From contig JACZJK010000040.1 of assembly GCA_014860575.1 (NCBI GenBank), positions 1 to 34,081 of the forward strand: a stretch of 34,081 nucleotides of DNA, in the 5' to 3' direction. The DNA comes from Bacteroidales bacterium (GTDB taxonomy: Bacteria > Bacteroidota > Bacteroidia > Bacteroidales > JAAYJT01). Positions 3,170-23,897 of this stretch are shown piece by piece. The position numbers were made by a program, and so were the translations under genes. The notes under the pieces were generated by a model. It saw nothing but the letters and a program-made list of their open reading frames with translations, did not search any database and was not told the DNA's origin. Numbering within the stretch: position 1 is the stretch's first letter; every line of letters starts with the position of its first letter.

Positions 3170-3170
3170 G

Positions 3171-7671: not shown

Positions 7672-7695
7672 CCGGATGGCTTGGCTTAAGAAAGG

Positions 7696-7703
7696 CAAAA
7701 CTA
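7696..7703 (-). promoter_or_regulatory. -7 box for the OppC-type gene
   Basis: The minus strand reads TAGTTTTG, matching the Bacteroidota -7 consensus TAnnTTTG, 24 bases before the ATG at 7671. No good -33 TTG is seen at normal spacing. It overlaps the alternative TTG start, which argues for the ATG. Confidence 0.5.
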
Positions 7704-7764
7704 AGAATAATTGTGAATGGTTAAAAAATCTGCAATAAACCTTAGTGTGGAAAAGATTTTATAC

Positions 7765-7772
7765 TATTTTTG
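7765..7772 (+). promoter_or_regulatory. -7 box of tRNA-His promoter
   Basis: TATTTTTG fits TAnnTTTG and lies 13 nt before the G-1 of the tRNA. The -33 region (TTAGTG near 7742) is weak. Confidence 0.55.
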
Positions 7773-7785
7773 CACTCCTTAATAC

Positions 7786-7863
7786 GGTGGTTATAGCTCA
7801 GTTGGTTAGAGCACCAGATTGTGGTTCTGGGGGTCGTGGGTTCAAATCCCATTAGCCACCCCA
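7786..7863 (+). tRNA. tRNA-His (anticodon GUG)
   Basis: The acceptor stem GTGGTTA (7787-7793) pairs with TAGCCAC (7853-7859). The extra 5' G at 7786 pairs with C73 at 7860, the hallmark of tRNA-His. The D arm has GCTCAGTTGGTTAGAGC, the anticodon loop is ATTGTGGT with GTG, and the T arm contains GGTTCAAATCC. CCA is encoded at 7861-7863. A strong terminator follows, so this is a single-tRNA transcript. Confidence 0.97.
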
Positions 7864-7867
7864 CCTT

Positions 7868-7891
7868 ACCCCTGAAATATGGGGTTTTTTT
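7868..7891 (+). terminator. Rho-independent terminator after tRNA-His
   Basis: ACCCC and GGGGT form a 5-bp stem around an 8-nt loop and are followed by a T run to 7891, five bases after the tRNA CCA end. Confidence 0.8.
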
Positions 7892-8003
7892 GTGCCCGAA
7901 ATGTTTATTTGAATGATCTATTCAGTCAAAAATCCGAAATAATCCTCTCATAGATTGGCATTTCCTGATATGATCAGGCATAATTTAAAAACTTATTATT
8001 AAG

Positions 8004-8032
8004 TTGAAATTCAATATATTTCATTACATTTG
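8004..8032 (+). promoter_or_regulatory. Promoter of the small ORF at 8136
   Basis: TTG at 8004-8006 and TACATTTG at 8025-8032 are separated by 18 nt, a good match to the Bacteroidota -33/-7 pattern. Transcription should start near 8037-8040, giving a ~95-nt leader. An inverted repeat CCTGAT-ATG-ATCAGG sits upstream at 7964-7978. Confidence 0.6.
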
Positions 8033-8135
8033 CAGGAACGATAAATAATGATTATTACATCGCCACCAGGATAATTCACCCTCTTATCAAAATATTCCTG
8101 ATTGCGATATCTTTCCTGTAGCTAATTAAAAGAAC

Positions 8136-8321
8136 ATGAAACAAGAAAAAAACCAATGCAATGGCAGCATTAAAGGTAAAATCTCAATTTACCTTCCTGA
8201 TAAACGCATGTGGGTTTATGCCGATAGCCAAAAAGAGGCTGATGATTATGTTTTGCGACTCAGAGCAAAAGACACAGCCCTGCAGGCATCAAGGCAGGCA
8301 ATGAATAAGAAAACATCCTGA
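8136..8321 (+). CDS. Small basic protein of unknown function (61 aa)
   Basis: This ATG-started frame encodes 61 residues: a Lys-rich N-terminus, a beta-like ISIYLPDKRMWVYA segment, then a charged, probably helical C-terminal half rich in Lys, Arg and Ala. There is no signal peptide or membrane helix. I do not recognise a family. It is credible because a good promoter (8004-8032) lies upstream, it occupies a gap with no competing gene, and its composition is protein-like. The ~95-nt leader could hold regulation. It converges on the symporter gene with a 21-bp gap. It could still be a chance frame inside a non-coding RNA. Confidence 0.5.
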   Translation: MKQEKNQCNGSIKGKISIYLPDKRMWVYADSQKEADDYVLRLRAKDTALQASRQAMNKKTS

Positions 8322-8342
8322 GTGCTCAAAAACAGGCAGTTT

Positions 8343-9788
8343 TTAACTGTATGATCGCTCGTACTTTGGCCAGGTAAATGATATTGCAATGATCATCACT
8401 GCAGCTATACTTATACCAAAGATATTAGGATCCAGATCAAAAGGAAGCCTGAAATTAGCTATGGTGAGAAAAAGGGTAGTGCCCCCACCGGCAAGCATAG
8501 AAATAAATGCAGCTAGGGATGTAGTGCGTTTCCAAAAGAGGCCGGCAAGCACCGGCACAAACAATCCACTCACCATGAAAGCATAGGAATACAGCATCAG
8601 TTCCAGCACATTTTCCATAGCAGAAGCCAGTAGAAGAGCCATTATTCCGATTACAAGGGTGAGTATCTGCGAAAACCGCAAAATGGTCTTATGATCATTT
8701 GAGATTTTGAAAAACTTTTGAAGGATATCGGTGAGCAGGTTACCGGAAGCAGCCATCAGGCAACTATCAGCCGTTGACATGATGGCTGAAAAATAAGCCG
8801 ACATCATCAAACCCATTAGCCCAACTGGCAGAATAGACCTTAAAAACAGTGGCAAGCCCATTTCCGCATCTATATCAGAACCTGGAGCAAAACCAAGCTC
8901 TGTAAACATACCATTCTCAAATCCAACCCTGGCAAAGAGTCCCAGCAAAACACCCATAAATGCCATAAGAGGCCATTCCAGTAATCCGGCAAAATACCAT
9001 GCCCGCTGTGCCGTTTTTGCATCTTTTGTGGCATAGATACGCTGGTAAAGGGTCATTCCTACGAACCATATCGGGATGATAGTAACAGCCCAGTTCACAA
9101 TGGTTTGCCAGCTTACATTATTGAATTTCAAAAACTCACCTGGCAAAGTGGCCACGATAGCTTCATATCCGCCGATGGCATGATATCCTAGCGGAATGCC
9201 TATGCCAATCAGACCTGCCATCAGAATAATCCATTGAATAGTGTCGGTGTAAATAACGGCTTTCATACCACCCATAACAGTGTACAGCACTGCAATAACG
9301 CCCATGATAATCAAAGCAGTTTGAAGATCCAATGACTCAAATGTAGCCGAAGCAAGTTTTGCCCCAGCCAGCAATTGAGAACTTGTAAATCCAATATACC
9401 CGATGGCCGATACTACGCCTGCGAGAATAGCGACTTCCCTTGAAAAAAGATGTTCAAATATTTGCGGAAAAGTAAGCAGTTTGAAACGCTGTGTAAGTTT
9501 TGCAACTCTTGGAATAAGTACCACAGCGCTGAGCCAGGCGCCTATCAAACCCGTAAAAAGCATCCATGAACCTGATAAACCCATAATAAATCCCAATCCA
9601 CCAAGTCCGATAGAAAACCCACCACCTACATCGGTTGCCACAACCGACAAGCCTACGTGAAAGCTGCTCATTTTTCTCCCACCAACATAATAATCGTCGG
9701 TAGTTACATTGCGGCGAAGGAAGTAAAATCCAACACCAAGAACCAGGATCATGTAGACAATAAAAATGAGAAGATCTATCCAATGCAT
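8343..9788 (-). CDS. Sodium:solute symporter (SSS family)
   Basis: This is an inner-membrane transporter of 481 residues with about 13 hydrophobic segments. The N-terminal half carries typical SSS features: a YYVGGRKM-like segment after helix 1, then a Gly-rich GVGFSIG-like stretch around VATDVGGGFSIGLGGLGF, and later a YTDTIQW-type VIYTDTIQWIILMAG segment. Such proteins couple Na+ entry to uptake of sugars, amino acids, carboxylates or similar; the substrate here is unknown. A TTG-started frame extends to 9848, but the ATG at 9788 starts directly at helix 1 (MHWIDLLIFIVYM). The -7 box at 9863-9870 would leave the longer form almost leaderless. The gene is a single unit, convergent with the small ORF. 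Confidence 0.88.
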   Translation of the reverse strand: MHWIDLLIFIVYMILVLGVGFYFLRRNVTTDDYYVGGRKMSSFHVGLSVVATDVGGGFSIGLGGLGFIMGLSGSWMLFTGLIGAWLSAVVLIPRVAKLTQRFKLLTFPQIFEHLFSREVAILAGVVSAIGYIGFTSSQLLAGAKLASATFESLDLQTALIIMGVIAVLYTVMGGMKAVIYTDTIQWIILMAGLIGIGIPLGYHAIGGYEAIVATLPGEFLKFNNVSWQTIVNWAVTIIPIWFVGMTLYQRIYATKDAKTAQRAWYFAGLLEWPLMAFMGVLLGLFARVGFENGMFTELGFAPGSDIDAEMGLPLFLRSILPVGLMGLMMSAYFSAIMSTADSCLMAASGNLLTDILQKFFKISNDHKTILRFSQILTLVIGIMALLLASAMENVLELMLYSYAFMVSGLFVPVLAGLFWKRTTSLAAFISMLAGGGTTLFLTIANFRLPFDLDPNIFGISIAAVMIIAISFTWPKYERSYS

Positions 9789-9862
9789 ACGCAGGGGTTT
9801 AAAAGAAAATGAAATAAATTTTTTGGAAAGAGAAGAATCTGACGTCAAGGTACGGCGTATTG

Positions 9863-9870
9863 CAAAGATA
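9863..9870 (-). promoter_or_regulatory. -7 box of symporter gene
   Basis: The minus strand reads TATCTTTG (TAnnTTTG). Transcription from it would begin about 65-70 nt before the ATG at 9788, supporting that start. Confidence 0.5.
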
Positions 9871-9978
9871 TCTTTTTTTGCGAACCATGCGACTAAGTCA
9901 GGTAGCCTTTATTGCTGTTTGCGCAAATACATCCATCCAGATGAGCGCTAGTCAGGCGAACTGATGTTCAGTTGGCAT

Positions 9979-9998
9979 TACTGTATCACAGTATCACA
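9979..9998 (+). repeat. Copy 1 of a 19-nt dispersed element, with an 8-bp direct repeat
   Basis: TACTGTATCACAGTATCAC at 9979-9997 matches the copies at 13645-13663 and 16188-16206 with three to four differences. It contains GTATCACA twice in tandem (9983-9990, 9991-9998). It lies 55 bp upstream of aroQ. Confidence 0.5.
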
Positions 9999-10022
9999 TT
10001 TCTACTGCATCGCAAAAAAACC

Positions 10023-10030
10023 TAATTTTG
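10023..10030 (+). promoter_or_regulatory. -7 box of aroQ
   Basis: TAATTTTG matches TAnnTTTG, 22 nt before the ATG. The -33 position is not clear. Confidence 0.5.
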
Positions 10031-10052
10031 CCAACCTAAGCAATCCAACTAC

Positions 10053-10496
10053 ATGACAATTCTTATTCTGAACGGCCCCAACCTTAATCTCACCGGACGC
10101 AGGGAGCCTGAAGTTTATGGGGTTCGAACCTTTGATGATTTGCTGGTTTCTTTAAAGCAACTTTACGCCAAGGTTAAGTTTGTGTATTTTCAGAGCAATA
10201 TTGAAGGCGAACTCATTGATAAACTGCATGAATATGGTTTTTCAGCCAGAGGAATTATTTTGAATGCTGGTGCATACACCCATACTTCTGTTGCTATAGG
10301 CGATGCAGTAAAAGCCATTGAATCTCCGGTTATTGAAGTACATCTCAGCAATGTATTTACAAGGGAAGAATTCAGGCATCACTCCTTTATTTCCCCTAAT
10401 GCAAAAGGATATTTGTGTGGCTTTGGTCTTTATGGCTATTTACTGGCCGCCGAAAGCTTGATAAATGATTTTAGACTTCCTGAAACTATTGAGTAA
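10053..10496 (+). CDS. aroQ: Type II 3-dehydroquinate dehydratase
   Basis: A cytosolic enzyme of the shikimate pathway that converts 3-dehydroquinate to 3-dehydroshikimate. At 147 residues it has the normal type II length. Visible signatures are LNGPNLNLTGRREPEVYG (the catalytic Tyr is Y22), a QSNIEGELIDKLHE segment, NAGAYTHTSVAIGDA, and EVHLSNVFTREEFRHHS with the active-site His region, ending in GFGLYGYLLA. It has its own -7 box and no same-strand neighbours. Its last 11 bases overlap the 3' end of the convergent glycosyltransferase gene. Confidence 0.96.
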   Translation: MTILILNGPNLNLTGRREPEVYGVRTFDDLLVSLKQLYAKVKFVYFQSNIEGELIDKLHEYGFSARGIILNAGAYTHTSVAIGDAVKAIESPVIEVHLSNVFTREEFRHHSFISPNAKGYLCGFGLYGYLLAAESLINDFRLPETIE

Positions 10497-11508
10497 AATC
10501 GGCTTGGTTGAGATCGCTGAAGCGCTTCTTTTTCCTAACATAATGATCCACCACCAGGTTTCTTTTGTAAACTCCCGAAACTTCCGACTGTGTTAACTTG
10601 CGGCGCTTGCTTAACTGCGATCTTACATTGAAAATAAAAAACCAGTGAGCTCTCAGCACAGCAAGAAAATCAGCTAATCCTCCAGCAGCAAGAAATTTTA
10701 ATGCGGCCACCCAATCCAGGGCCCAGCGTGTAATAAATGTCTGAAATATTTTTCCGGAAGGAATATTCTTAAAAATCAGCGTGAGGTTGTTCCTGAAATT
10801 CAGGTAGGTTTTCAGCGAAGATTTTTTCGGAAGCGTACCGCCACCAACGTGGTAAACAACAGCATCGGGACAATACATGATTTTATAACCGGCATTTTTC
10901 AATCGCCAGCAAAGGTCTATTTCCTCCATATGAGCGAAAAAGTCATTGTCGAAGCCTCCAAAACGATGATACAATTCGGCTCTTACAAACAAACATGCAC
11001 CTGTTGCCCAGAAAACCTCAGCCTCGTTATCATACTGTCCGCGGTCTTCTTCAATTTCCTGAAATATCCTTCCCCGGCAAAAAGGATAGCCAAAGCGATC
11101 AATAAATCCACCTGCAGCGCCGGCATATTCAAAATGAGAACGCTTATAAAAGGCCAGCAGTTTGGGCTGACATGCTGCAATCTGCCTGTCTTTTTCCATC
11201 AAATCTATCACAGGCTTGATCCAGTTGGCTGTAACTTCAATATCGGAATTAAGCAACACATAATACTCACTGTTTACCTGAGAAAGTGCATCGTTATAGC
11301 CTTTTGCGAACCCACCGTTGGTTTCATTCTGAATTATCCTGATTTCCGGAAAGTTGGCTGTAAGAAATTCTACTGAATCATCGCTTGAAGCATTGTCGGC
11401 AATGATAATATCTGCGTAGTTTTTGCTGTGTTCAATAACGCCTGGAAGAAATTTTTCCAGGAATTTCTTCCCATTCCAGTTCAGAATAACTACAGATACT
11501 TTAACCAT
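10486..11508 (-). CDS. Family 2 glycosyltransferase
   Basis: A 340-residue GT2 enzyme of the rhamnosyltransferase-like group (WbbL type). It has an N-terminal VSVVILNWNGKKFLEKF strand/loop, ADNASSDDS, the DXD-like LLNSDIEV, and ATGACLFVRAELYHRFGGFDNDFFAHMEEIDLCWR, which carries the conserved Glu-Asp pair of the acceptor/base region. The C-terminal ~100 residues hold amphipathic or hydrophobic stretches that probably contact the membrane. The enzyme should add a sugar to lipopolysaccharide, capsule or another surface glycan; donor and acceptor are unknown. The start at 11508 is fixed by a TAATG overlap with the upstream acyltransferase stop, which implies translational coupling. The longer frame from 11568 begins with GTG. 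Confidence 0.9.
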   Translation of the reverse strand: MVKVSVVILNWNGKKFLEKFLPGVIEHSKNYADIIIADNASSDDSVEFLTANFPEIRIIQNETNGGFAKGYNDALSQVNSEYYVLLNSDIEVTANWIKPVIDLMEKDRQIAACQPKLLAFYKRSHFEYAGAAGGFIDRFGYPFCRGRIFQEIEEDRGQYDNEAEVFWATGACLFVRAELYHRFGGFDNDFFAHMEEIDLCWRLKNAGYKIMYCPDAVVYHVGGGTLPKKSSLKTYLNFRNNLTLIFKNIPSGKIFQTFITRWALDWVAALKFLAAGGLADFLAVLRAHWFFIFNVRSQLSKRRKLTQSEVSGVYKRNLVVDHYVRKKKRFSDLNQADFTQ

Positions 11509-12404
11509 TATGTTGAAGATTTTACAGATTCCGGTTTGGGAGCATATTTCCAGCGGCGGTGCGACCACAACCAGTTGTATGGCCGCTCACGGATCGCTTT
11601 TTCGAGTAAACGGACGTATTTAAGTGTTATTTCATATTCTCCGGTTTCTGCCGGGCGTTCGGAGATTAATTGAAATTCAACTTCATAATGCCCGCGCCGG
11701 GTCCTGTAAACGTTCGCAAACACCACTGCCTGATCAAGCATTTTTGCAATTTTCTCGAAGCCAGTGAAATAGGGTGTCTGGCGGTTCAGGAAATAAGTTT
11801 GAAAGCCTATTTCACTTTTATGTGGTGTTTGATCTGCTGCAAACAGGGTCAAAGTAAGCTTATCTTTATTCCTGATCATATAACGTAGCGTTTGTTTGAA
11901 AGGGATAATACTATCGTTTGTATGAAGCCTGCGCAGATCGTTGATGTACTTATCAAAAAATGGATTACTTAGCGGCTTTATCACTGCAAAGCCTGTGTAC
12001 TCGGGGAAATTGAGCTGTATCCCGGGTCCGAGCCATTCCCAGTTGCCAAGATGGGCAGTAAGCAGGATCACACTTTTCCCTTTCTCCTTGATATTGTGCA
12101 AAACTTCAGGGTTCAGAAAAGTGAAACGGCTTTTAATCTGATCGGCTGATAAACCTGGTGTTTTTATAACTTCAATGACAAGATCGGCCAGGTGTTGATA
12201 ATAGGTTCGTGTGATTGCCGATATTTCCCTTTCGGAATACTCCGGAAAACTTTTTCTCAGGTTGTCCTTGATAATCTGCTTGCGATATGCAACTACATTA
12301 TTGAGAACAAAGCAGGCAAAACCTGATAATGTATAAAGCAGAAAACCCGGCAGGATAGATACGAGCCAGGCAAATCCCGAAAACAACCAATATAGGATGC
12401 GCAT
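11508..12404 (-). CDS. LpxL/HtrB-family lipid A acyltransferase
   Basis: A 298-residue inner-membrane enzyme with an N-terminal hydrophobic helix (MRILYWLFSGFAWLVSILPG). The catalytic HX4E-type motif HLGNWE sits in the segment LTAHLGNWEWLG, as expected for late acyltransferases that transfer acyl chains to Kdo-lipid A. ADQTPHK and the downstream basic region also fit. ATG 12404 is chosen over ATG 12455 because a strong -7 box lies at 12425-12432, inside the longer frame. The TAATG overlap with the GT2 gene means the pair is made together, consistent with envelope lipid/glycan assembly. In some Bacteroidota, related enzymes act on other lipids. Confidence 0.88.
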   Translation of the reverse strand: MRILYWLFSGFAWLVSILPGFLLYTLSGFACFVLNNVVAYRKQIIKDNLRKSFPEYSEREISAITRTYYQHLADLVIEVIKTPGLSADQIKSRFTFLNPEVLHNIKEKGKSVILLTAHLGNWEWLGPGIQLNFPEYTGFAVIKPLSNPFFDKYINDLRRLHTNDSIIPFKQTLRYMIRNKDKLTLTLFAADQTPHKSEIGFQTYFLNRQTPYFTGFEKIAKMLDQAVVFANVYRTRRGHYEVEFQLISERPAETGEYEITLKYVRLLEKAIRERPYNWLWSHRRWKYAPKPESVKSST

Positions 12405-12432: not shown

Positions 12433-12519
12433 CTACATTGAAGTTTATAACACATAGTGTATGGCGAAAGGTTCGAAGGTCAAACAAGAGTAACAATACA
12501 TTGTTAGTTGTTTAAAAGA

Positions 12520-13473
12520 ATGGAAATTATGATAGCGTTGAAAAGATTCGGTATTCCTGCTTTACTATTTATCCTGGCAGGATTTCTTCAATATTACACT
12601 GATTTAGTAGGCTTTATACCTGAAAGCCTTGTAGGAACCCTTAAAAAAGCTGGAGAAGTTTTATGGATTATAAGCATAGCATGGGCAATTATCGTTGGCA
12701 TTCGCATTGCTAAAAATCATTTACTTAGAAAGTATGATCTTAGTGATGCAGATAACCTTAAAAGCCGGAAACTCTATACACAGTATAATATCCTTGAAAG
12801 AATAGTTATATTCATAATTATAATTATTGCTACAGCCATCACGCTTATGTTGTTTGATGGGGTTAAAAATATTGGTATCAGCCTGTTTGCCTCGGCTGGT
12901 GTAGCAGGATTGATTATTGGACTTTCAGCGCAGAAAGCACTGGGAACGGTTCTTGCCGGACTGCAGATCGCTCTCACACAACCTATCCGTATTGATGACG
13001 TAGTTGTGGTTGAAGGGGAGTGGGGTAGGATCGAGGAAATAAATCTTACTTTCGTTGTGATAAAAATCTGGGACAGCCGTCGCCTGATAGTTCCGTCTAC
13101 CTACTTTCTTGATAAGCCTTTTCAGAACTGGACCCGAACATCAGCCGATATTCTTGGAACCGTTTTCATTTATACCGATTATACCATTCCTTTTGAACCT
13201 CTGCGCAAGGAGCTGACGCGCTTGCTTGAATCCAATCCGCTTTGGGATGAACAGGTAAACGTCCTTCAAATCACTGATGCCAAACAAACTACCGTTGAAA
13301 TAAGGGCGTTGATGAGCGCTGCCAACTCTCCTGATGCCTGGGATTTGAGGGTGTTTGTGAGGGAAAAACTCATTGAGTTCATACAACGCGAATACCCGCA
13401 ATGCCTGCCGCGGACAAGGATTGAGATCAAGAATGAAGGCATGAAGGAATCCGGAGCTGTTTTCCCCGACTAA
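12520..13473 (+). CDS. MscS-family mechanosensitive channel
   Basis: An inner-membrane channel of about 317 residues. Two N-terminal hydrophobic helices and a third near residues 90-110 precede the pore-lining helix, with the Gly/Ala-rich LFASAGVAGLIIGLSAQKALGTVLAG typical of MscS TM3. The beta domain follows (QPIRIDDVVVVEGEWGRIEEI and RLIVPSTYFLDKPFQNWTR), then the alpha/beta vestibule. It should open under membrane tension and release solutes on osmotic downshock. ATG 12520 or 12529 is more likely than the TTG at 12508. It lies convergent with the trehalose block, which would suit an osmotic-stress neighbourhood; that link is inference from position only. Confidence 0.9.
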   Translation: MEIMIALKRFGIPALLFILAGFLQYYTDLVGFIPESLVGTLKKAGEVLWIISIAWAIIVGIRIAKNHLLRKYDLSDADNLKSRKLYTQYNILERIVIFIIIIIATAITLMLFDGVKNIGISLFASAGVAGLIIGLSAQKALGTVLAGLQIALTQPIRIDDVVVVEGEWGRIEEINLTFVVIKIWDSRRLIVPSTYFLDKPFQNWTRTSADILGTVFIYTDYTIPFEPLRKELTRLLESNPLWDEQVNVLQITDAKQTTVEIRALMSAANSPDAWDLRVFVREKLIEFIQREYPQCLPRTRIEIKNEGMKESGAVFPD

Positions 13474-13668: not shown

Positions 13669-15867
13669 CTACGGCTTCCTGCTTCTCAGTTTTTTCAGAA
13701 AAGCTAAAACATCAGCCTGATCACTAATTACATATCGGGCATTTGTTTGTATCATTCCTACCTTTACGGTCCAGGCATGTTTTGGCAAGGATTGAAACAA
13801 TAACTCATCGGCCCAGCCAGCGCCAAGGGCAAGCACAAAGTCATACTCTTTCTTTGATAACCAGTGCATTCCCAGCTCACCTTTGTTGATCCCAGAGTTG
13901 CTGACTTCTATTACCTTATGACCCTGCAGCACCTGAACGCCGATATTGTTTGTAATACTTAAAAGATGATCCATGACTTCATTTGATAAAAATCCGGCTT
14001 GCTCCACATCAGCTTTGTGGTAGAGCCATGATATGGAGTAGTCTCTCTCTTCAATGCTAGCCCCTGGCAGGCGATCGGTGTACATTTCAAGAATGGGAAG
14101 GATTACTTCTTTCCACTCCGGCGATAATGGTTTAAAAAGCTTCCATTTTTTGACATTTGCTTCACGAAGCCAGGTACCATTTTCGGCGCTCAGATTCACT
14201 GGGATTTCGCCTAGCCATGCATCCAGGTCTTCTTTTCCTCTGCTACTGATAATTACAACATCGGCATGATCAATGATATTCAGATTATTCAAAATTTTAA
14301 GCAAGGCCTGATCCGGTTTTGCGTGGGCTGGATTTTTCTGGTAAGGAGCCAGGGTACCATCATAGTTTACAATGATCAGCCTGTTTTCAGCGTGTTGATA
14401 ATGTTCAACGATCTTATCAATGTCCTCTGTTTCAAAAATCTTTTTCCTGGAATAATAACTTGATATTTTGCTAACGTCTATCAGGCTGTCTACAAAATCT
14501 GTAGCCCATTTTGTAACATCGTAACGTTTAAGACGCTTTTGCATGGTGCGGTTATACCTTATCTGATCTTCTTCGGGGACACTCAAGGCATCAAATATTG
14601 CATCAGCAATTTCGTCCACATTATTTGGGTTGATAATAATGCTTTCGCTCAACTCTTTAGCTGCGCCTGTGAATTCGCTTAAAATCAACACTCCTTTTTG
14701 ATCGTTTAAAGAAGCTACATATTCTTTTGCAACAAGGTTCATCCCATCGCGTAAGGGTGTAATCAGGGAAACATCGCTGCGCCTGTATTGGGCTATCAGT
14801 TCTTTATGAGGCAATGAGGTGTACTGATATATGATTGGTGTCCAGTCAGGATTGCCATAGTTCCCGTTAATATTGCCCACCAATTCATCCAGTCGTCTTT
14901 TAATCTCCTGGTATGATGTGACCCCAGTACGAGAAGGCACAACTATCATATTTAAGAATACTTTGTTATGCCATTCAGGATGATTTTTTAAAAACAGTTC
15001 AAAACCCTGCAAACGGTTCACAATACCTTTGGAATAGTCGAGCCTGTCCACAGAGAGTACTATTTTGGGCTGATCCAGACCAGGCTTTTCTGATATGAAA
15101 GGAGAAACATCCATTTTATTGAATTTATTGAACTCAATTCCCATAGGAAAAGTCCCCACTCTCACTACCCTGTCAGGAAGGTTAACTATGCCCATGTGAT
15201 TTTCCTTACCAAGAATTCGCAGGATCGAACGCAAAAAATACTGTGAATAGTCATGTGTATGGAAGCCAATCAGATCAGAACCCAGAAGGCCTTCAAGCAA
15301 CTCGCTCCTGCTGTCTTTTGGGAACATACGGAACATCTCGTAGCTTGGAAAAGGGATGTGAAGGAAGAACCCGATAGGATTTGTTACTTTTTCACGCAAC
15401 ATCAAAGGCAACAGCATCAAATGGTAATCATGAACCCAGATGATGTCGCCCGGTTTTACGACCTTCAACACTTCGTTGCAGAATATTTTGTTCAATTGCT
15501 TGTATTCCGTCCAGAATTCACTGTCGAAGGTTGCATAATTCGGAAAGTAGTGAAACAATGGCCAGATGGTCTTATTGCAGAACCCCAGGTAAACCTTATC
15601 CATTAATTTCTGGGATAGAAAAACCGGGGAGGCTTTATAATCCTTCTGTACTGTTGTTTTTACAAAATCCTCGTCTTTTTTGGCTATGGTCATTCCCGGC
15701 CATCCCATCCAGATATAATCATTTATGTCTGTTTCGGATTTGCCAAGGCTGTTCAGATAATCGCTCAGGCCGGAAACCAGTCCGCCGGCACTTTTCTCAA
15801 ATTCAAACTCCCTGTTCTTTTTTGAAACCGAAACAGGCAATCGGTTGGAAACTATAATCAGGCGCAT
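13669..15867 (-). CDS. otsA: OtsA trehalose-6-phosphate synthase fused to a degenerate phosphatase domain
   Basis: A 732-residue protein. Residues 1 to ~465 form a GT20 synthase that makes trehalose-6-phosphate from UDP-glucose and glucose-6-phosphate. Its key residues are intact: Arg9 in SNRLP, Asp147 in HDYH, Arg275 and Lys280 in VDRLDYSKG, Asp374 and Glu382 in LRDGMNLVAKEY. Residues ~490-732 are an OtsB-like HAD domain, but the DxD nucleophile motif reads NYDGTL (Asn501 for the first Asp) and GDDxTDE reads GAGWADE (682-688). The Lys of INKGELG remains. The phosphatase half is therefore probably inactive and may be structural or regulatory. This is the last gene of the trehalose block. I see no promoter in the 351-bp repeat-filled gap upstream. 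Confidence 0.93.
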   Translation of the reverse strand: MRLIIVSNRLPVSVSKKNREFEFEKSAGGLVSGLSDYLNSLGKSETDINDYIWMGWPGMTIAKKDEDFVKTTVQKDYKASPVFLSQKLMDKVYLGFCNKTIWPLFHYFPNYATFDSEFWTEYKQLNKIFCNEVLKVVKPGDIIWVHDYHLMLLPLMLREKVTNPIGFFLHIPFPSYEMFRMFPKDSRSELLEGLLGSDLIGFHTHDYSQYFLRSILRILGKENHMGIVNLPDRVVRVGTFPMGIEFNKFNKMDVSPFISEKPGLDQPKIVLSVDRLDYSKGIVNRLQGFELFLKNHPEWHNKVFLNMIVVPSRTGVTSYQEIKRRLDELVGNINGNYGNPDWTPIIYQYTSLPHKELIAQYRRSDVSLITPLRDGMNLVAKEYVASLNDQKGVLILSEFTGAAKELSESIIINPNNVDEIADAIFDALSVPEEDQIRYNRTMQKRLKRYDVTKWATDFVDSLIDVSKISSYYSRKKIFETEDIDKIVEHYQHAENRLIIVNYDGTLAPYQKNPAHAKPDQALLKILNNLNIIDHADVVIISSRGKEDLDAWLGEIPVNLSAENGTWLREANVKKWKLFKPLSPEWKEVILPILEMYTDRLPGASIEERDYSISWLYHKADVEQAGFLSNEVMDHLLSITNNIGVQVLQGHKVIEVSNSGINKGELGMHWLSKKEYDFVLALGAGWADELLFQSLPKHAWTVKVGMIQTNARYVISDQADVLAFLKKLRSRKP

Positions 15868-16218
15868 TGTTTTTGGTTTTTGTTAATATTTTGTTCGACG
15901 TTTGGTGTAGTGTTCCAGGTTCTAAGTTCGAGGTTCACAAAGTTCGGCACCTCGGTCATTGAGTTGCTTGTCCCGATCCTTCGGGATCGAAGTGATGGGT
16001 CATTAGTTCAAAGTTCAAAGTTCAACGTTCAAAGTGCTAGGTTGCTGGTTACTAGTTGCAGGTTACTGGTTGCTGGTTGCTGGTTACCGGTTACTGATCC
16101 CTTCGTCCCTCGTCCTTCGACCCCGTCTCTTGTTTCTTGATTCTTGTTTCTTGTCTCTCCATCACTCCATCAAAATAACTAATCAGCTACTGCAACACAG
16201 CATCACTATATCACTATA
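15868..16218. repeat. Mosaic of 7-bp tandem repeats between GH65 gene and otsA
   Basis: This 351-bp gap has no credible gene. GTTCNAR units run at 15912-15939, then GTTCAAA x4 at 16006-16033. Without a break come nine GTTRCTG-like units (16034-16096), CTTCGTC-like units (16101-16128), CTTGTTT-like units (16129-16156) and CTCCATC words (16157-16171). The period stays at 7 bp while the unit changes. Also present are a CGATCC-TTCG-GGATCG hairpin (15974-15989), copy 3 of the 19-nt element (16188-16206), and CACTATAT in tandem (16204-16219). Short frames crossing it translate the repeat. Confidence 0.85.
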
Positions 16219-18615
16219 TCACAACATAAACTCCTTCCTGTCACTGGTTCTAAAAAAGTGTTTTTCCCCTTTCACTCCAATGGTTACAGGATTTGCCCAG
16301 CCTTTGTCGAACTCAATGGTTAATTTTTCATGGTTCATATTTACTTTAATCCAGTGGCTCCGGTACCGGAGGCTGAAACGGATTGTTTTAATATCTTCAG
16401 GTAGCTGTGGATTGAACCAAAGTACATTGTCGCCGATTTCAAGTCCGGAATAACAGCGTTGCATAATATCCAGGGTTCCTGCCATGGCGCCCAGGTGTAT
16501 GCCTTCGTGGGTGGTGCCACCCTGAACATCTTCAAAATCACTCATCAAAGCCACCTTAAAACTTCTCCACGACTCTTCGCGATGTGAACGCGCATAAACC
16601 CATGAATGAATCACCTGACTCAGTGTTGATCCATGTGCGGTTCTTTTCTGATAATATTCAATATTTTTAGGAATAGTTTCTGTATCGAACTTATATCCGA
16701 GCCTCTTGAACATTCGTTCTAACTCATCGGCTGAGAAAAGATAGAATAGCATGAGCATATCAGCTTGTTTGCTGGCTTTGTAGTAATTGCATGAATCGCC
16801 TTCACTCTCAAGGATGCGATCGAGGCGTAATGCTTTTCCGTATTTTTCGTGGTAGTGATCCCAATCAAGTTCTTTCAAATTTTCATAACCCTCAAACTGC
16901 ATAATGATTCCATCTTCGTGGAAAGGCATATACATTTTCTCAGTGATGTCTTTCCATCTTTCCAAATCTTTTTCAGTGAATCCCAGTTTGTCTGACAGGT
17001 TTATACAGCAGGAAGGATCAAAATTTTCAAGCAATCCAAGGGCATGTTGTAACACCCACACAGCCATTACATTGGTATATGCATTATTGTTTAGACCTGG
17101 CTCTTCGGCATCGGGATAGTGGGTGTGATATTCATCAGGTCCCATCACCTTATGGATCTCATAGCGTCCGCGTTCGGAGTTAAAATGAGCGATATCAGAC
17201 CAGAATAATGCGGATGCCACAATGATTTCAGCGCCATGAGATAGCATGAAATCCATATCACCGGTGCTCTGATAATAATGCCACACATTGTAAGGAATGG
17301 CAGCATTGACGTGATACTGCAGATGCGAAACATCTGGCAGCCAGCGTCCCGATTTTGGATTCAGATGAATTTTTTGCGTTTCTTCGCGGCCGTTGCTACT
17401 GCTTTGCCAGGGAAACAATGCTCCACGAAGTCCTTCCTGTTTTGCAGCATGGATGGCTTCGGGTAAACGGCGGTAACGATACATGAGCAGCGAGCGCGAT
17501 AGCTGCGGCATATGCAGGTTGATAAATGGAAGAATGTAAAGTTCGTCCCAGAAAATATGTCCGCGGTAAGCCTCACCATGCCAGCCACGGGCTGGAACAC
17601 CAATATCATAATCAATGCTGTTTTGCGAAACCGACTGATAAAGGTGGAAAATATGAAGGCGTATAACTAGCTGGTCATTGCTGCCGTTTGATTCGAACTC
17701 TATGTCATTGGAGTCCCAGATTTGCTGCCAGGCAATCTGTTGCTGTTCTTCCAGTTCAGAAAATTCACCAACACGTTCAATATTGGTTTTGGCCTCGGTA
17801 AGGGGATCGCTGATGGCAAAATCGCGGGAAGTATACATAGCAGCCAGTTTTTCGACAGTCACAGGTGTGCCCTTAATACATTCAAAGCTGAAATCCCCGG
17901 CAAGGAATCCTTCTTCCTGGAAAAGCTCAGGTGTTATATCCGGTGATTTGCCATTAATATAAACATTTGTTCTCACAGCTTGTGCCATGCGAATCTGCGA
18001 CTGCTTTGTCTGGCTCAGCATATAATGGCTGGTTTTATTAAAGCTTCCCTTCTCAAGTACTTGAATGTGGTTCTGATTCAATTGCCGGTATCTTGCTACA
18101 TTATTATTGATAATGTTACCATCAATTCCGGATCGGACAGTAATCTGACCCGACCAGTTCTGAGGTGTAAGTATCCATTGAATTCCAGCCAGATGGTAAT
18201 TGTACATGCTCACAATCCTGCGGCTTTTGATAAAGGTGATCCGGCCCTCTTTATCACGAAATTGCATCCTACGCTCCAATAATCCTTGCTTAAGGTGTAA
18301 TTGGGTTTCGTATTCCAGGATTTCCATTTCTTCAAGTGTGAACCATTTTCCTTCGCCGATTTTAAATGTGAGGTAGAGCCAGTTGGGCCAGTTTGCCAGA
18401 TCTTCATTTTCAATAATCTTTCCTTCAATTTCGGATTTCATTCGGTTGTAACCACCAGCCAGATAGGTTCCCGGATAATTGTACTCATTATCCTTCGCCA
18501 TTTCCAGCGCACCCCTCGTTACAAAATAACCATTGCCGAGTGCGCATAAAGCTTCATGCAAAGGGTGTTCTTTTTCATCGAAGCCTTTGTAGATCACTGT
18601 CCAGTTGTTATCCAT
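16219..18615 (-). CDS. GH65 glycoside phosphorylase (trehalose-type likely)
   Basis: A 798-residue GH65 enzyme. The N-terminal ~270 residues form the beta-sandwich, followed by the (alpha/alpha)6 catalytic barrel. Visible motifs are VPARGWHGEAYRGHIFWDE, GPDEYH with general acid Glu495, YKASKQAD with Lys616-Gln617 (substrate site), HGSTLSQVIHSW (phosphate loop), and TTHEGIHLGAMAGT. Members with these loops split alpha-glucosides with phosphate, inverting to beta-glucose-1-phosphate. Trehalose or trehalose-6-phosphate is the probable substrate given the OtsA, OtsB and TreS neighbours, and the beta-phosphoglucomutase upstream would use the product. Maltose or kojibiose cannot be excluded. The sequence resembles the C-terminal GH65 part of mycobacterial OtsB1 as I remember it. 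Confidence 0.88.
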   Translation of the reverse strand: MDNNWTVIYKGFDEKEHPLHEALCALGNGYFVTRGALEMAKDNEYNYPGTYLAGGYNRMKSEIEGKIIENEDLANWPNWLYLTFKIGEGKWFTLEEMEILEYETQLHLKQGLLERRMQFRDKEGRITFIKSRRIVSMYNYHLAGIQWILTPQNWSGQITVRSGIDGNIINNNVARYRQLNQNHIQVLEKGSFNKTSHYMLSQTKQSQIRMAQAVRTNVYINGKSPDITPELFQEEGFLAGDFSFECIKGTPVTVEKLAAMYTSRDFAISDPLTEAKTNIERVGEFSELEEQQQIAWQQIWDSNDIEFESNGSNDQLVIRLHIFHLYQSVSQNSIDYDIGVPARGWHGEAYRGHIFWDELYILPFINLHMPQLSRSLLMYRYRRLPEAIHAAKQEGLRGALFPWQSSSNGREETQKIHLNPKSGRWLPDVSHLQYHVNAAIPYNVWHYYQSTGDMDFMLSHGAEIIVASALFWSDIAHFNSERGRYEIHKVMGPDEYHTHYPDAEEPGLNNNAYTNVMAVWVLQHALGLLENFDPSCCINLSDKLGFTEKDLERWKDITEKMYMPFHEDGIIMQFEGYENLKELDWDHYHEKYGKALRLDRILESEGDSCNYYKASKQADMLMLFYLFSADELERMFKRLGYKFDTETIPKNIEYYQKRTAHGSTLSQVIHSWVYARSHREESWRSFKVALMSDFEDVQGGTTHEGIHLGAMAGTLDIMQRCYSGLEIGDNVLWFNPQLPEDIKTIRFSLRYRSHWIKVNMNHEKLTIEFDKGWANPVTIGVKGEKHFFRTSDRKEFML

Positions 18616-18800: not shown

Positions 18801-20393
18801 TTATAGCTCATACATCCCAATCAGCTTCTTAAAAAATTCCTTCACCTGAAAAACATTCTTTAGGGCATAAGTAGCAGCGGTTTTCTTTCCATGCCCGCCA
18901 ACCAGGATTCCGATCCCCTTTTCCTGAAGCGTATTGAAAGCATCTTCATCAGTCATATCATCTCCAATGAATATGGGAATGATATCCTTTTGACCGGATA
19001 GCTTTAAGGCTTTCAAAATCCAATCCACGGCTTTACCTTTATGCCAGTCGAGGTCGGGTTTGATCTCAAGGATCTTTTTACCAGCTCCGATTTTAAAACC
19101 CTTATGCCTGCTGATCATTGTATTTGCAATTTCATGAACAACAGCCTCATCTTCCTCCCGCGCATTGCGGTAATGAATCCCAATGGCATAGCGCTTACGA
19201 TCGAGCTGGGTGCCCTGGGTTCTCTCATTCAGCTCTTTTTTAATTTCCTTTTCAATCTCATCAAGCCTTGGGATTATGTTCTTTGAGTCCTCATGTTCCA
19301 TAAAAAGCCCGTTTGGACCGCTGATGATATAGCCATGGCTGCCGGCATAAACAAGTCCGTTGAGGCCAACGAGGTTTTCCACATCTTCTTTGTTGCGCCC
19401 TGTTACGATTGCCACTGTGAATAAGTGGGCAAGTTGCTGCAAGGTTTCCTTCATCTCATTTGAAATAATGGCGTCTTCAGGACGGGGAACTATAGGCGAA
19501 AGAGTTCCGTCGTAATCGAGGAAAATGGCTGGTTTTTTTTTGGTCAGAATTTCGAAGACTTCATCATTGCCCGGAAAAATGGGTTTTCCCTGACGGGAGA
19601 AATATGCTTCCTGAATTTCCGGATCTGAAAGGTTCAGATCAGAAAAATTATCAATGGTGATATCAGCACCGTTATCAAGCAAAGCTTGTTTGTTGTTAAA
19701 ACGATTAACACCAACCACGAGTCCAAAATAGCCTTGCTGGCCGGCTTGTACTCCCGAAATAGCATCTTCAAAAACAACAGAATTTTCGGGTCTGACCCCT
19801 AGTCTTCGGGCAGCTTCTGTGAAAATATCCGGATTGGGTTTGCCTTTAAGGCCAATTTCTACTGAGACCACTCCGTCAACACGGGTATCGAACAAATCTT
19901 CAATCCCGGCCACCTTGATGATATTGCGGCAGTTTTTGCTGGAAGATACAATAGCGGTTTTTATTCCCTGTTTTTTCCAATCCCTGAGTTTAGCAATGGC
20001 ATCGTGATAAATCTCCACACCTTCCAGCTCAACCAGTTCATTAAACAGCATGTTCTTTAGGTTCCCAAGCGCACAAATGGTTGCAAAACCAGGGTCATCA
20101 TCGGGGTTTCCAAGCGGGAGCTTGATGCTGCGGGATTCGAGGAAGCTTTGTACGCCAATATAACGGGGTTTGCCGTCAACATAATTCTGATAATCGTCTT
20201 CGGTCATTGAGTCCTGCTTTAGGAACTCTTTTTCGCGTTCAGCGAAGAATTTATCAAATGTCTCTTTCCATGCTTTTTTATGGGTTTTGCGGGTTTGGGT
20301 GATGACCCCGTCAAGATCAAATATGAGTGCTTCAATCTTGTGAGTGTGCGGCCTTATATTTTCGGATAAATTAGCGTCTTTGTTCGAATTCAT
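18801..20393 (-). CDS. otsB: Beta-phosphoglucomutase / trehalose-6-phosphatase fusion
   Basis: A 530-residue fusion of two HAD enzymes. Residues ~20-250 are beta-phosphoglucomutase-like, with Asp26 and Asp28 in FDLDGVIT, DGKPRYIGVQSFL in the cap, VSSSKN, KGKPNPDIF and FEDAISGVQAG. This domain should turn beta-glucose-1-phosphate into glucose-6-phosphate. Residues ~285-530 are OtsB, with an intact nucleophile motif (Asp293, Asp295 in LDYDGTLSP), VTGRNKED and GDDMTDED (Asp478, Asp479, Asp482), and should dephosphorylate trehalose-6-phosphate. It is thus the working phosphatase beside the degenerate one in the OtsA fusion. It has its own promoter (20455-20485). Joined to the next gene it reproduces the HAD-OtsB-GH65 order of mycobacterial OtsB1. 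Confidence 0.93.
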   Translation of the reverse strand: MNSNKDANLSENIRPHTHKIEALIFDLDGVITQTRKTHKKAWKETFDKFFAEREKEFLKQDSMTEDDYQNYVDGKPRYIGVQSFLESRSIKLPLGNPDDDPGFATICALGNLKNMLFNELVELEGVEIYHDAIAKLRDWKKQGIKTAIVSSSKNCRNIIKVAGIEDLFDTRVDGVVSVEIGLKGKPNPDIFTEAARRLGVRPENSVVFEDAISGVQAGQQGYFGLVVGVNRFNNKQALLDNGADITIDNFSDLNLSDPEIQEAYFSRQGKPIFPGNDEVFEILTKKKPAIFLDYDGTLSPIVPRPEDAIISNEMKETLQQLAHLFTVAIVTGRNKEDVENLVGLNGLVYAGSHGYIISGPNGLFMEHEDSKNIIPRLDEIEKEIKKELNERTQGTQLDRKRYAIGIHYRNAREEDEAVVHEIANTMISRHKGFKIGAGKKILEIKPDLDWHKGKAVDWILKALKLSGQKDIIPIFIGDDMTDEDAFNTLQEKGIGILVGGHGKKTAATYALKNVFQVKEFFKKLIGMYEL

Positions 20394-20618: not shown

Positions 20619-23600
20619 TCAGCTTTTCAGCTTGATTCTGTTTCTGATCCTTTGCAGTGCATTTACTGGAATAGCCACAAGTTCAGGTTGATTTTCGGAA
20701 AAATGTCTTAATTCCTGGATTGATTTTTCCAGCATAAAAAGATTAATCAGATCGTTTGTATGATTGATGTTTTTCGGGATCAATCCGGAGTTTGCCATAG
20801 CATCAATGTAGGATTGAATAAACAAGGAAGATATTTTCTCGTACCAATTGTCCATCATTGGTTGCAAATAATTCTCGTTTACAGGAACAAATTCACGACG
20901 TTTGAGATATCCCATATAGATGGATAAATGAAATGAATTGAGCATTGATGCCACGTCCTTTAAGGGACAATGCTTCAGTTTGCGAATACTAAATGCTTCG
21001 TTTTTATCTCCTTCAAAATCAGTAACTATAAAGTCTTTTCCGGTAAATAATAACTTATCGAGCTTATAACTTCCATGAATCCTTATTTTACGCGTATTAA
21101 GCTTTTCAGCTTCCAGGGTAGTGTGCAAAAATGAAAAGAAATCAGACTGGCTATCAAGAATATCCTGTATTTTGGCTTTATCTCCAACGCCTGGTTCCTT
21201 TTGTTTTTCATTGATAACAGAAAATGCCCTTTTAATAAAGGTTCTTAAAGATTGATTTAAAGATTTTTGATACAAAAGCGAAAAGTCTTCGGGTTCGAAC
21301 CCTTTTACAGCCTTCAGTGAAGCTAGTGCCAGATGCATCTCAGCCGTCCGACGACCCAGCAGGGCGATCATTTCGAGGAAGAAAGGCTCTATAAATTCTT
21401 CAACATTTAGCTGTTGAGCGGCTTGCTTGCCGACCTCAAACTTTTGGGTCAGAACCCTGTCAAAGAATGATTCAATAGCTGTTTGGGTCATCTTCCAGGC
21501 GTCTCCAACATTGGGAATCAAATCAACAAGTATAGCCAGTGAGGTGTTTTCGAACCCTGGTTTGTTATAATCAAGCCGACCTGCATACAGCGGAATATTA
21601 TCAAAACCCGAATACCGGCTGAGATTTTTTATAATTTCAACATCGGGATTTTCACCTTGCTGCGGATTGCGATAAATCTTAAAAAAGTATTTGTCGCCAA
21701 AGCTAACTGATGTGTTAGTGTGTTTTGAAACAATTACATGGGGTTTTAAATATGTTTCTCCCAGTAGCCGCAACCTGCCGCCTGATGAACCTTCAATCTC
21801 GCCAAACACGCCTTTCACTTTGGTGCGCCTTCTGATAATGCCGAAAAGTTCTTCCTGTAAAATATTATCATGTACCCCATCATATAAAATGCCCGCCTCA
21901 CCATCAATCAGAATATTTTTGATAACCGATTCAGGGTAGCTGGTTCTAATTTCGATAGCTTTGTTATTTAAGGCAATTGAAACTGGCATGAGGAAGATAT
22001 CTTCACTGGCTTCAATCAAATCCATTTTCACAATAAACAAATATGAATTACACTCCTTATGTGGAAGTGCAATCACAGCAATTATATTGATTTCCCTGAG
22101 CTTGCGCACATTTCCTTTGAACCACCGGCTTTTAATTATATAATCATATAAAAGCTCCCTAATGGTTCGCTGCATAGGTGAAGCCATCTTAGCCCATTGA
22201 TGATTGGTGATTTTTAATGGTTCCTGATCCAATCCCTCAACTTCTGTTTCTTTTTCCTGCCTCCGAAGCAGAAACCAGAAATAGTTTTTAAACTGCATTG
22301 AAAACTCCCAGGGTTGATCGGAAATAACCCGGAAATCGTTTCGGCTGAATATTTCCATGGGAACCGAACCGGCATAATCCTGTAGGTCAATTTCCACATG
22401 TTGTGAATAACGTGAAAGATTTACCACAATCAATATGGTTTCGTCTTTATATTCCCTTACAAAGGCAAGTACCTTAGGATTGCTGGTATTTATAAATTTT
22501 AAACTACCCCGGCCAAATGCTTTGTACTTATTACGTTTGGCAATAACCCTGCGTTGCCACCATAGGAAAGAAGAAGGATTCCGCTCCTGATTTTCAACAT
22601 TTACTGAGGTGTAATGGTAATTGTTGTCAATGATAACAGGTAAGAATAATTTTTGAGGGTCAGTTGAAGAAAAGCCTGCATTTTTATCGGGGCTCCATTG
22701 CATGGGTGTTCTTACACCATCCCTGTCGCCAAGGTAATAATTATCGCCCATGCCTATTTCATCTCCGTAATAAATTATAGGTGTGCCGGGCATTGACAAA
22801 AGGAGGAAGTTCAGCAATTCAATAGTTCTGAGATCGCCACCAAAAAGCGGAAAGAGCCGACGGCGGATTCCGACATTCACCCGTTTTCGCGGATCATCAG
22901 CAAAAGATTTATACATATAATCTCTTTCCTCGTCTGAAACCATTTCAAGGGTTAACTCATCATGATTGCGTAGAAAGATAGCCCACTGGCAATTGTCAGG
23001 TATCTGCGGAGTTTGTTCTATGATGTCAACAATAGGAAAGCGGTCTTCCATGCGCAGGGCCATGTACATCCTTGGCATTAGTGGAAAGTGGAAAGCCATA
23101 TGGCATTCATCGCCGCTGCCAAAATAATCTGATGCATCGTTGGGCCATTGGTTAGCTTCGGCCAGCAACAATTTATCCTGGTAATTATCGTCAACATACT
23201 TGCGCAGTTCTTTCAGGTATTTATGTGTTTCGGGTAGATTTTCACAGTTTGTGCCTTCGGCCTCAAATAGATAAGGTACCGCATCGAGCCGGAATCCATC
23301 TACCCCTATTTGAAACCAGAAATCAAGCGCTTTTAATATCTCTTTTTTGACTTTAGGGTTTTCAAAATTAAGATCCGGCTGGTGGGAGTAGAACCTGTGC
23401 CAGTAGTAGGCCTTGGCTTCATGATCATAAGTCCAGTTTGAGACCTCAAAATCCTGGAAAATAATACGGGCATCCTGGTACTTTTCAGGCGTATCGCTCC
23501 ATACGTAAAAGTCGCGGTAAGTGCTTCCCGGTTTTGATTTCCGGGCACGCTGAAACCATTTGTGTTCGGTTGATGTATGATTAAGCACCAGTTCCGTAAT

Positions 23601-23897
23601 GATCCGCAAGCCGCGCCGATGAGCTTCTTTTACAAAACGTTTAAAGTCGGCCAGTGTGCCGTAGGATGGATGAACGCCATTAAAATCAGCAATATCATAC
23701 CCACCATCTTTTAGTGGTGATGGATAAAACGGAAGCAGCCACAATGTATTCACGCCAAGGTTCTGAACATAATCAAGTTTTTGAATTAAGCCTTTGAAAT
23801 CACCAATTCCATCACTATTGCTGTCGTAAAAAGATCGCACATGTAACTGGTAAATTACAGCATCTTTATACCATAAAGGATTATTATTTTCTAGCAT
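20619..23897 (-). CDS. treS: Trehalose synthase fused to a maltokinase-like domain
   Basis: A 1092-residue fusion. Residues 1 to ~545 are a GH13 trehalose synthase that isomerises maltose and trehalose, with nucleophile Asp205 in GFRLDAVPY, acid/base Glu247 in LLAEANQWP, and Asp313 in RNHDELTLE. From ~590 to the end is a maltokinase-like domain with an aminoglycoside-kinase fold: the lysine segment FFKIYRN, NPDVEI, NVGDAWKM and the Mg-binding DFEGD (Asp960) are recognisable. The catalytic loop, however, reads HGSYKLDK (941-948) where HGDYHLGQ is usual, so Ser943 replaces the catalytic Asp. Kinase activity is doubtful. No GlgE maltosyltransferase is in the window. It is the first gene of the trehalose block, with its own -7 box and a hairpin-rich leader. 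Confidence 0.93.
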   Translation of the reverse strand: MLENNNPLWYKDAVIYQLHVRSFYDSNSDGIGDFKGLIQKLDYVQNLGVNTLWLLPFYPSPLKDGGYDIADFNGVHPSYGTLADFKRFVKEAHRRGLRIITELVLNHTSTEHKWFQRARKSKPGSTYRDFYVWSDTPEKYQDARIIFQDFEVSNWTYDHEAKAYYWHRFYSHQPDLNFENPKVKKEILKALDFWFQIGVDGFRLDAVPYLFEAEGTNCENLPETHKYLKELRKYVDDNYQDKLLLAEANQWPNDASDYFGSGDECHMAFHFPLMPRMYMALRMEDRFPIVDIIEQTPQIPDNCQWAIFLRNHDELTLEMVSDEERDYMYKSFADDPRKRVNVGIRRRLFPLFGGDLRTIELLNFLLLSMPGTPIIYYGDEIGMGDNYYLGDRDGVRTPMQWSPDKNAGFSSTDPQKLFLPVIIDNNYHYTSVNVENQERNPSSFLWWQRRVIAKRNKYKAFGRGSLKFINTSNPKVLAFVREYKDETILIVVNLSRYSQHVEIDLQDYAGSVPMEIFSRNDFRVISDQPWEFSMQFKNYFWFLLRRQEKETEVEGLDQEPLKITNHQWAKMASPMQRTIRELLYDYIIKSRWFKGNVRKLREINIIAVIALPHKECNSYLFIVKMDLIEASEDIFLMPVSIALNNKAIEIRTSYPESVIKNILIDGEAGILYDGVHDNILQEELFGIIRRRTKVKGVFGEIEGSSGGRLRLLGETYLKPHVIVSKHTNTSVSFGDKYFFKIYRNPQQGENPDVEIIKNLSRYSGFDNIPLYAGRLDYNKPGFENTSLAILVDLIPNVGDAWKMTQTAIESFFDRVLTQKFEVGKQAAQQLNVEEFIEPFFLEMIALLGRRTAEMHLALASLKAVKGFEPEDFSLLYQKSLNQSLRTFIKRAFSVINEKQKEPGVGDKAKIQDILDSQSDFFSFLHTTLEAEKLNTRKIRIHGSYKLDKLLFTGKDFIVTDFEGDKNEAFSIRKLKHCPLKDVASMLNSFHLSIYMGYLKRREFVPVNENYLQPMMDNWYEKISSLFIQSYIDAMANSGLIPKNINHTNDLINLFMLEKSIQELRHFSENQPELVAIPVNALQRIRNRIKLKS

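Follow-up and report, generated by a model that had tools for sequence, protein, structure and literature searches.

A bacterial OtsA-OtsB clade with altered phosphatase motifs and a predicted T6P phosphatase encoded elsewhere in most of its genomes

How does a trehalose pathway run when the fused protein expected both to make and to dephosphorylate trehalose-6-phosphate (T6P) has lost the motifs of its phosphatase half, and why would such a half be kept? This question is raised by the OtsA-OtsB fusion P0001, which lies on a stretch of 34,081 nucleotides from a Bacteroidales bacterium (the whole stretch analysed, called the window below). The gene is laid out as follows.

13669 to 15867, minus strand: OtsA fused to an apparently dead OtsB domain, P0001, 732 aa (domain and family profile matches)
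14482 to 15864, minus strand: T6P synthase half, Pfam residues 2-462, sampled catalytic residues intact (Pfam and alignment)
13759 to 14370, minus strand: T6P phosphatase-like half, Pfam residues 500-703, fold predicted to the C terminus (Pfam and structure model)
14365 to 14367, minus strand: Asn501 (codon AAC) replacing the nucleophilic Asp, within NYDGTL at 14350-14367 (sequence and alignment)
13804 to 13824, minus strand: GAGWADE replacing GDDxTDE, the Mg2+ site, residues 682-688 (sequence and alignment)

Residues lost and kept in the fusion

The reading frame of P0001 is open, without stops, and Pfam assigns residues 2-462 to Glyco_transf_20 (484 bits) and residues 500-703 to Trehalose_PPase (107 bits against a cut-off of 27). 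The full-length protein also matches NCBIfam NF011071, the bifunctional OtsA-OtsB model, over residues 1-729 (897.7 bits, cut-off 634). P0001 has the domain order of that family, a synthase followed by a T6P phosphatase (T6PP) domain; it carries Asn501 where the family has the nucleophilic Asp of motif I, and Ala683 and Gly684 where it has the motif IV aspartates. By its motifs, P0001 fails the features that define activity in a bifunctional TPSP, which bears on annotation, as the NCBI model names the protein bifunctional.

Relatives were taken from contigs of named genomes, of which the best 80 of 575 matches were kept, and from GTDB phylum and order samples, where 59 of 395 and 72 of 393 genomes had a match; matches to the synthase half only and a few fragments were excluded. 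With 80 fetched regions and after removal of duplicates, 201 fusions were aligned, the window's included. The motifs read DxD with DD..D in 167 fusions and NxD with AG in 26 (window included); single cases are L037 (NxD/SG), L051 (NxD/NN), L132 (NxD/ND) and L264 (DxD/DN), and four fusions end or break before motif IV. We compared alignment columns between 28 pseudo-phosphatase rows, including the window, and 172 other fusions, which are termed live from their motifs alone. L132 was left out of both sets, while L264, which has GDN in motif IV and keeps the nucleophile, was counted among the 172 together with the four incomplete fusions (L082, L213, L256 and L260).

Position 501 is N in 28/28 clade members and D in 172/172 other fusions. 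The DD at 683-684 is kept in 0/28 members, which have A (26), S (1) or N (1) at the first position and G (27) or N (1) at the second, as compared to D683 in 168/168 and D684 in 167/168 of the other fusions with letters at motif IV. At position 606, E is present in 170/172 other fusions and kept in 8/28 clade members, where the six commonest letters are E8 Q8 K5 D2 R2 A1, and position 608 is K in 172/172 other fusions and R15 K10 M2 H1 in the clade. The arginine at 617 is kept in no clade member, 25/28 having His, and position 656, which is K or R in 171/171 other fusions, reads S22 A4 T1 Y1. Asp503, Ser541, Arg543, Lys662, Asp687 and Glu688 are kept in 28/28 and Glu654 in 27/28.

Residues E606, K608 and E654 align with E123, K125 and E167 of the Salmonella T6PP chain, which we take to be sugar-binding residues. 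For C. albicans Tps2, Table 3 of PMC9079074 gives E131, K133, R142 and E180 among the residues that bind, and the passages with Table 1 of PMC4081830 report that activity was undetectable in B. malayi T6PP with the nucleophile replaced (D213A). The dead half has therefore retained its phosphate cradle, but its metal site is altered, as is much of the surface that recognizes the sugar. In the synthase half, the window's fusion has R9, W102, D147, H170, R275, K280, D374, N377 and E382, which we take to be catalytic residues, and all clade members that have letters at these positions share them (25 to 28 rows).

An earlier note on this DNA had argued that loss at both motifs speaks against an error, with the synthase residues all intact. 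On re-reading the sequence, its Asn501 (AAC, 14365-14367) and GAGWADE (682-688) are exact, its argument agrees with the finding that 27 further fusions in the alignment carry these changes, and the intactness of the synthase holds for the sampled positions in both window and clade. It placed PGASIEERDYS (601-611) and INKGELG (660-666) correctly, but the former does not stand as a plainly kept OtsB motif, because it has Arg608 at a position that is K in all 172 other fusions. The loss at two motifs is likewise real, but it is not confined to them: His and Ser stand here at 617 and 656, where live fusions have basic residues. Its span for the phosphatase half (13810-14370) cuts into motif IV, and the protein reaches its stop at 13669.

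A single clade, its constraint and its predicted fold

The fusions were aligned and motif loss was mapped on a tree, a check that the earlier note had proposed, and the 28 pseudo-phosphatase rows proved to be one clade. They form one branch with an SH-aLRT of 100 in a 110-row tree of the synthase half only, and the same 28 form one branch with a support of 99 in a 77-row phosphatase-domain tree that holds all 28 dead domains, L132 and only 27 of the other fusions. Among the best 80 of 575 matches, the named records of clade members have titles that refer to metagenome assemblies of Bacteroidales or Bacteroidetes; L051 (Cloacimonadota) is the exception. Motif loss thus characterizes, and is conserved in, a single clade of uncultured, mainly Bacteroidales bacteria, and the trees indicate a single loss of catalysis inside it. 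A loss private to the window was ruled out, since 28 members share it, and so was chance or error, by N501 in 28/28 versus D501 in 172/172; several losses inside the clade are not called for by the synthase-half tree, which needs one only.

Among the matches listed, and in trees built without eukaryotic rows, the clade has its nearest relatives in fusions from bacteria and archaea whose motifs are intact. Two genomes of the same genus as the window's (G001 and G002), both searched, gave neither an OtsA-OtsB match nor a T6PP. The fusion L132 (G605, 1495-3705, plus strand), which reads NYDGTL and GNDWTDE, lies outside the 28-member branch in the synthase-half tree, and its Asn501 is a separate event. 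It holds the sole T6PP domain found in G605, so that this genome may lack a T6P phosphatase or keep a weak activity.

As only 2 of 378 pairs were unsaturated for dN/dS, constraint was evaluated mainly by binning identities. In bins at synthase identities of about 0.65, 0.70, 0.75, 0.80 and 0.85, dead halves are on average identical at 0.548, 0.592, 0.678, 0.709 and 0.767, respectively, as compared to 0.554, 0.634, 0.692, 0.772 and 0.813 for the phosphatase half of other fusions in the same bins. The two usable pairs, one of which (L044, L045) comes from a single assembly, gave a dN/dS of 0.075 and 0.061 for the dead half and of 0.065 and 0.027 for the synthase half. Of the near-invariant columns, the clade keeps 70/75 in the synthase half and 20/29 in the phosphatase half.

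The AlphaFold model has a pLDDT of 92.0 for the whole of P0001 and 93.5 for the dead domain (248 residues). This domain model aligns with the T6P phosphatase domains of 5dxi (Z 30.8, rmsd 2.2, 248 residues) and 5dx9 (Z 30.4, rmsd 1.7, 248 residues), as well as with the Candida regulatory-protein domain of 5hus (Z 23.6, rmsd 2.2, 233 residues); a Foldseek search with P0001 returned synthase chains for the 50 matches listed. The dead domain is predicted to fold as a T6P phosphatase. By the identity bins and dN/dS it is under constraint, which is somewhat weaker than in live enzymes and, by the columns kept and dN/dS, lower than on the synthase half.

A phosphatase in trans and the gene neighbourhood

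The genes around otsA that bear on the question are the following.

18801 to 20393, minus strand: beta-phosphoglucomutase-like HAD (bPGM) fused to a T6P phosphatase, P0002, 530 aa, LDYDGTL and GDDMTDE intact (domain and family matches)
16219 to 18615, minus strand: GH65 family protein, P0003, 798 aa, directly upstream of otsA (domain match)
20619 to 23897, minus strand: trehalose synthase (TreS) fused to a maltokinase-like domain, P0004, 1092 aa (domain match)
12508 to 13473, plus strand: MscS-type mechanosensitive channel, convergent with otsA (domain match)

P0002 is encoded two genes upstream of otsA, with GH65 between them. It combines a bPGM-like HAD with a T6PP domain with intact motifs, as in the OtsB1 type, and is assigned as a T6PP by family and motif; a passage of PMC11046441 reports M. 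tuberculosis OtsB1 to be without T6PP activity. The window's genome has two T6PP domains, both in the window, of which one is dead and the other has intact motifs. An intact T6PP in the same cluster would explain how the phosphatase activity of the fused domain could be lost. The earlier note was right about the motif loss at this locus and overlooked this second gene.

T6PP domains were searched in 26 clade genomes, which are the window's and 25 distinct others (G770 and G795 have the same coordinates). An intact T6PP is present elsewhere in 22 of the 26 genomes, of OtsB1 type in 19 and as a second OtsA-OtsB fusion with intact motifs in three (G434, G543 and G770), where it stands instead of an OtsB1-type T6PP and the pathway could run without the pseudo-enzyme. 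G768 has contig-end fragments of a bPGM-T6PP only, and no other intact T6PP was found in the draft assemblies G786, G791 and G635, the first and last having one match and G791 two, both dead.

The trans T6PPs, 20 from the clade (G783 gives two) plus that of L083, group in a single branch (100), separate from the 56 OtsA-linked domains included in the phosphatase-domain tree. Over 19 genomes, distances between trans T6PPs correlate with those between synthase halves (r 0.80; none of 5000 permutations reached this value), as would be expected if both were inherited from a common ancestor; plain vertical descent gives the same. An origin of the trans T6PP by duplication of the OtsA-linked domain was unsupported, as it is 26% identical to the dead domain and lies in a separate branch. 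In a side branch of six clade members, the T6PP, where found (L143, L149 and L157), is stand-alone and about 300 residues long. Two genomes have further copies. The G794 bin (L262, L048, L261 and L280) contains two pseudo-phosphatase fusions, one intact fusion and one stand-alone T6PP, while L282 (G783:C180) carries at 7108-11127 a second pair of bPGM-T6PP and GH65, whose T6PP is sister to the window's (100) and whose contig ends just past GH65.

The intergenic gaps of the window's same-strand cluster range from 185 to 351 bases. The gene that ends immediately upstream of otsA, on its strand, is GH65 in the window and in 18/23 evaluable clade members besides it (4 more have too little DNA), as compared to 0/167 evaluable other fusions (5 more with too little DNA). 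Other fusions of the order are often divergent to a bPGM-GH65 fusion; in the clade, T6PP is what bPGM is fused to. The spacer between GH65 and otsA (15868-16218) contains short repeated phrases, for example, aaccagcaaccagtaacc near 16080. The TreS-maltokinase-like gene beside the OtsA cluster places two trehalose routes in one neighbourhood.

All five evaluable clade loci without an upstream GH65 belong to the side branch, whose six members all have a universal stress protein gene downstream (6/6). TrkH-TrkA potassium-uptake genes lie directly upstream of the pseudo-phosphatase fusion in L048 (256-2716), L050 (830-3328) and L122 (3554-4655); elsewhere in the side branch, L119 has another gene at this place, and L120 and L262 end near it. 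A convergent MscS-type gene was found within 2.5 kb in 13/22 evaluable clade members besides the window and in 1/100 other fusions, a count restricted to relatives of the window's MscS and including hits in short loci, which raises both rates. The MscS, Trk and universal stress protein genes nearby suggest a link with osmotic stress. P0003 reads DWSTWE at the six specificity positions of PMC8537180, which matches none of the motifs quoted in that paper, and its nearest solved chain is 9lb6 (461 bits), which is named trehalose-6-phosphate hydrolase.

Why the inactive half may be kept, and known systems

With a probability of about 0.72, we consider P0001 to be a synthase-only OtsA whose product T6P is dephosphorylated in trans, the dead half being kept as a structural or regulatory part. 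The clade ancestor would have had an OtsB1-type phosphatase beside an OtsA-OtsB fusion, so that catalysis in the fused domain became dispensable and would have been lost once, in the ancestor of this mainly Bacteroidales clade, most lineages of which appear to carry also a separate OtsB1-type T6PP, fused to bPGM or alone. The OtsA half would make T6P and the separate enzyme would dephosphorylate it, and we infer that P0001 has synthase activity and lacks phosphatase activity. The dead domain may have stayed as a structural or allosteric part on which the synthase half, or the assembly of this half with pathway partners, depends, and the dead pocket may still bind a phosphorylated ligand. What carries this reading at the sequence level is the motif losses with their single clade origin, the constraint on a domain with a predicted fold, and an intact partner that appears to be co-inherited. 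As for the exact non-catalytic role, given that one exists, our guess is an even chance of a structural or activating part, with ligand sensing and partner docking each half as probable.

The non-catalytic role proposed by the earlier note was the right inference, as motif loss is conserved in the clade and the domain appears to be constrained; its suggestion that the dead half holds the synthase in a complex is possible. It had also suggested T6P sensing, that is, a dead pocket that binds T6P without hydrolysing it and exerts feedback on the synthase or its partners, which we regard as unlikely. The pocket residues kept in the clade (Asp503, Ser541, Arg543, Lys662, Asp687 and Glu688 in all members and Glu654 in 27/28) and the same Asn501 in all 28 members are in its favour, and since Asn501 and Gly684 have become fixed, some ligand may still be bound in the pocket. 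The C. neoformans 5dx9 chain reads NYDGTL at the same place in the PDB, which fits a change of the nucleophile to Asn for holding T6P, the purpose for which it was presumably made. However, the positions aligned with sugar contacts (606, 608, 617 and 656) are lost or variable in the clade, and both variable motif IV aspartates are gone. Sensing by the canonical mode is weakened because cap residues for sugar recognition (E606, K608 and R617) are also changed, and this change speaks against an ordinary mode of T6P binding.

Somewhat less probable again is an evolutionary leftover, a redundant phosphatase in decay that is kept only for a fold that stabilizes the protein. The intact phosphatase elsewhere in 22/26 genomes would allow it, and the dead half keeps fewer near-invariant columns than the synthase half and is slightly more divergent than live halves; against this, Asn501 (28/28) and Gly684 (27/28) are fixed rather than drifting, the divergence is near that of live domains, and no member without the domain was seen in searches with whole-protein queries, among which such a member would rank low. 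HAD phosphatase chemistry requires an aspartate nucleophile and metal ligands. Since these are missing, the gain of another catalytic activity, which a fixed set of N501, A683 and G684 with a kept pocket might otherwise suggest, is very improbable. The window comes from a 66-contig assembly, but an assembly or sequencing error has a next to negligible chance of explaining an open frame without stops and the same changes in 27 other fusions.

The reading of P0001 as a synthase-only OtsA with trans dephosphorylation can be extended, tentatively and with the odds against it, to a eukaryote-like complex that evolved independently in bacteria, in which the pseudophosphatase would dock or regulate bPGM-T6PP and GH65, and one assembly would decide whether T6P goes to trehalose or to glucose-6-phosphate under osmotic stress. 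Among the open-licence PMC papers listed by our searches, none reports a bacterial OtsA-OtsB fusion with a dead phosphatase half. The layout parallels that of plant and yeast trehalose synthases. In plants and fungi such dead halves are well documented, but what they are for is unsettled. The bacterial clade shares the design, has an intact partner among the neighbouring genes and seems to be an independent and simple example, which makes the role of the dead half in synthase activity, partner binding or ligand sensing tractable with few genes.

Among known systems, the OtsB1 type resembles this locus in that P0002 and P0003 together give the order bPGM-T6PP-GH65, which we take to be the domain order of M. 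tuberculosis Rv2006 (OtsB1). In contrast to that type, two genes are present here, GH65 being separate, 185 bases downstream of P0002, and adjoining otsA; L083 encodes bPGM-T6PP-GH65 in a single frame of 1329 aa with intact motifs. Cytophaga hutchinsonii ChTPSP is, like P0001, a Bacteroidota OtsA-OtsB fusion. It is described in a passage of PMC3634074 as bifunctional with conserved motifs, whereas those of P0001 are lost.

Thermoproteus tenax TPSP, as described in passages of the same paper, is a prokaryotic fusion with a mechanosensitive channel gene nearby; its synthase half has no activity when isolated, and GT depends on the fused phosphatase domain in order to activate it (PMC3634074). 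This is a precedent for a non-catalytic role of a phosphatase domain in a prokaryote. However, the T. tenax phosphatase half is described there as active, whereas the motifs are lost in P0001, and msc is in the operon, while it is convergent to otsA here. In the 19 clade loci examined, some of them short, otsA had no gt partner gene next to it; the window's GT2 gene (10486-11568) lies two genes from otsA and has a match in 0/19 of these loci.

Proteins lacking T6PP motifs are named from plants and fungi in a passage of PMC1769515. Yeast and Candida Tps3/Tsl1 (5hus) share with P0001 a phosphatase-like domain without predicted catalysis. They differ in that synthase residues and phosphatase motifs are both incomplete or absent in Tps3/Tsl1, according to a passage of PMC3634074, whereas the sampled synthase residues are intact in P0001. 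Plant class I TPS (AtTPS1 type) and P0001 both have an intact synthase half and a phosphatase half without catalytic residues; P0001 keeps the synthase residues and has lost nucleophile and metal site, as a class I-like TPS would. Table 3 of PMC9079074 gives D25G, D230H, K133R and R142K, also D27N and R67S, for sugarcane class I TPS. P0001 also differs from live enzymes at the positions aligned with the first four in that table (D to N, D to A, K to R and R to His), whereas those of D27N and R67S are kept (D503 and R543). The N-terminal autoinhibitory extension of AtTPS1 is absent in P0001, whose synthase domain starts at residue 2, and the bacterial gene, unlike those of plants, stands in a same-strand cluster with GH65 and bPGM-T6PP. 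With these differences, P0001 would work like a plant class I TPS, with a live synthase, a dead phosphatase and a phosphatase acting in trans.
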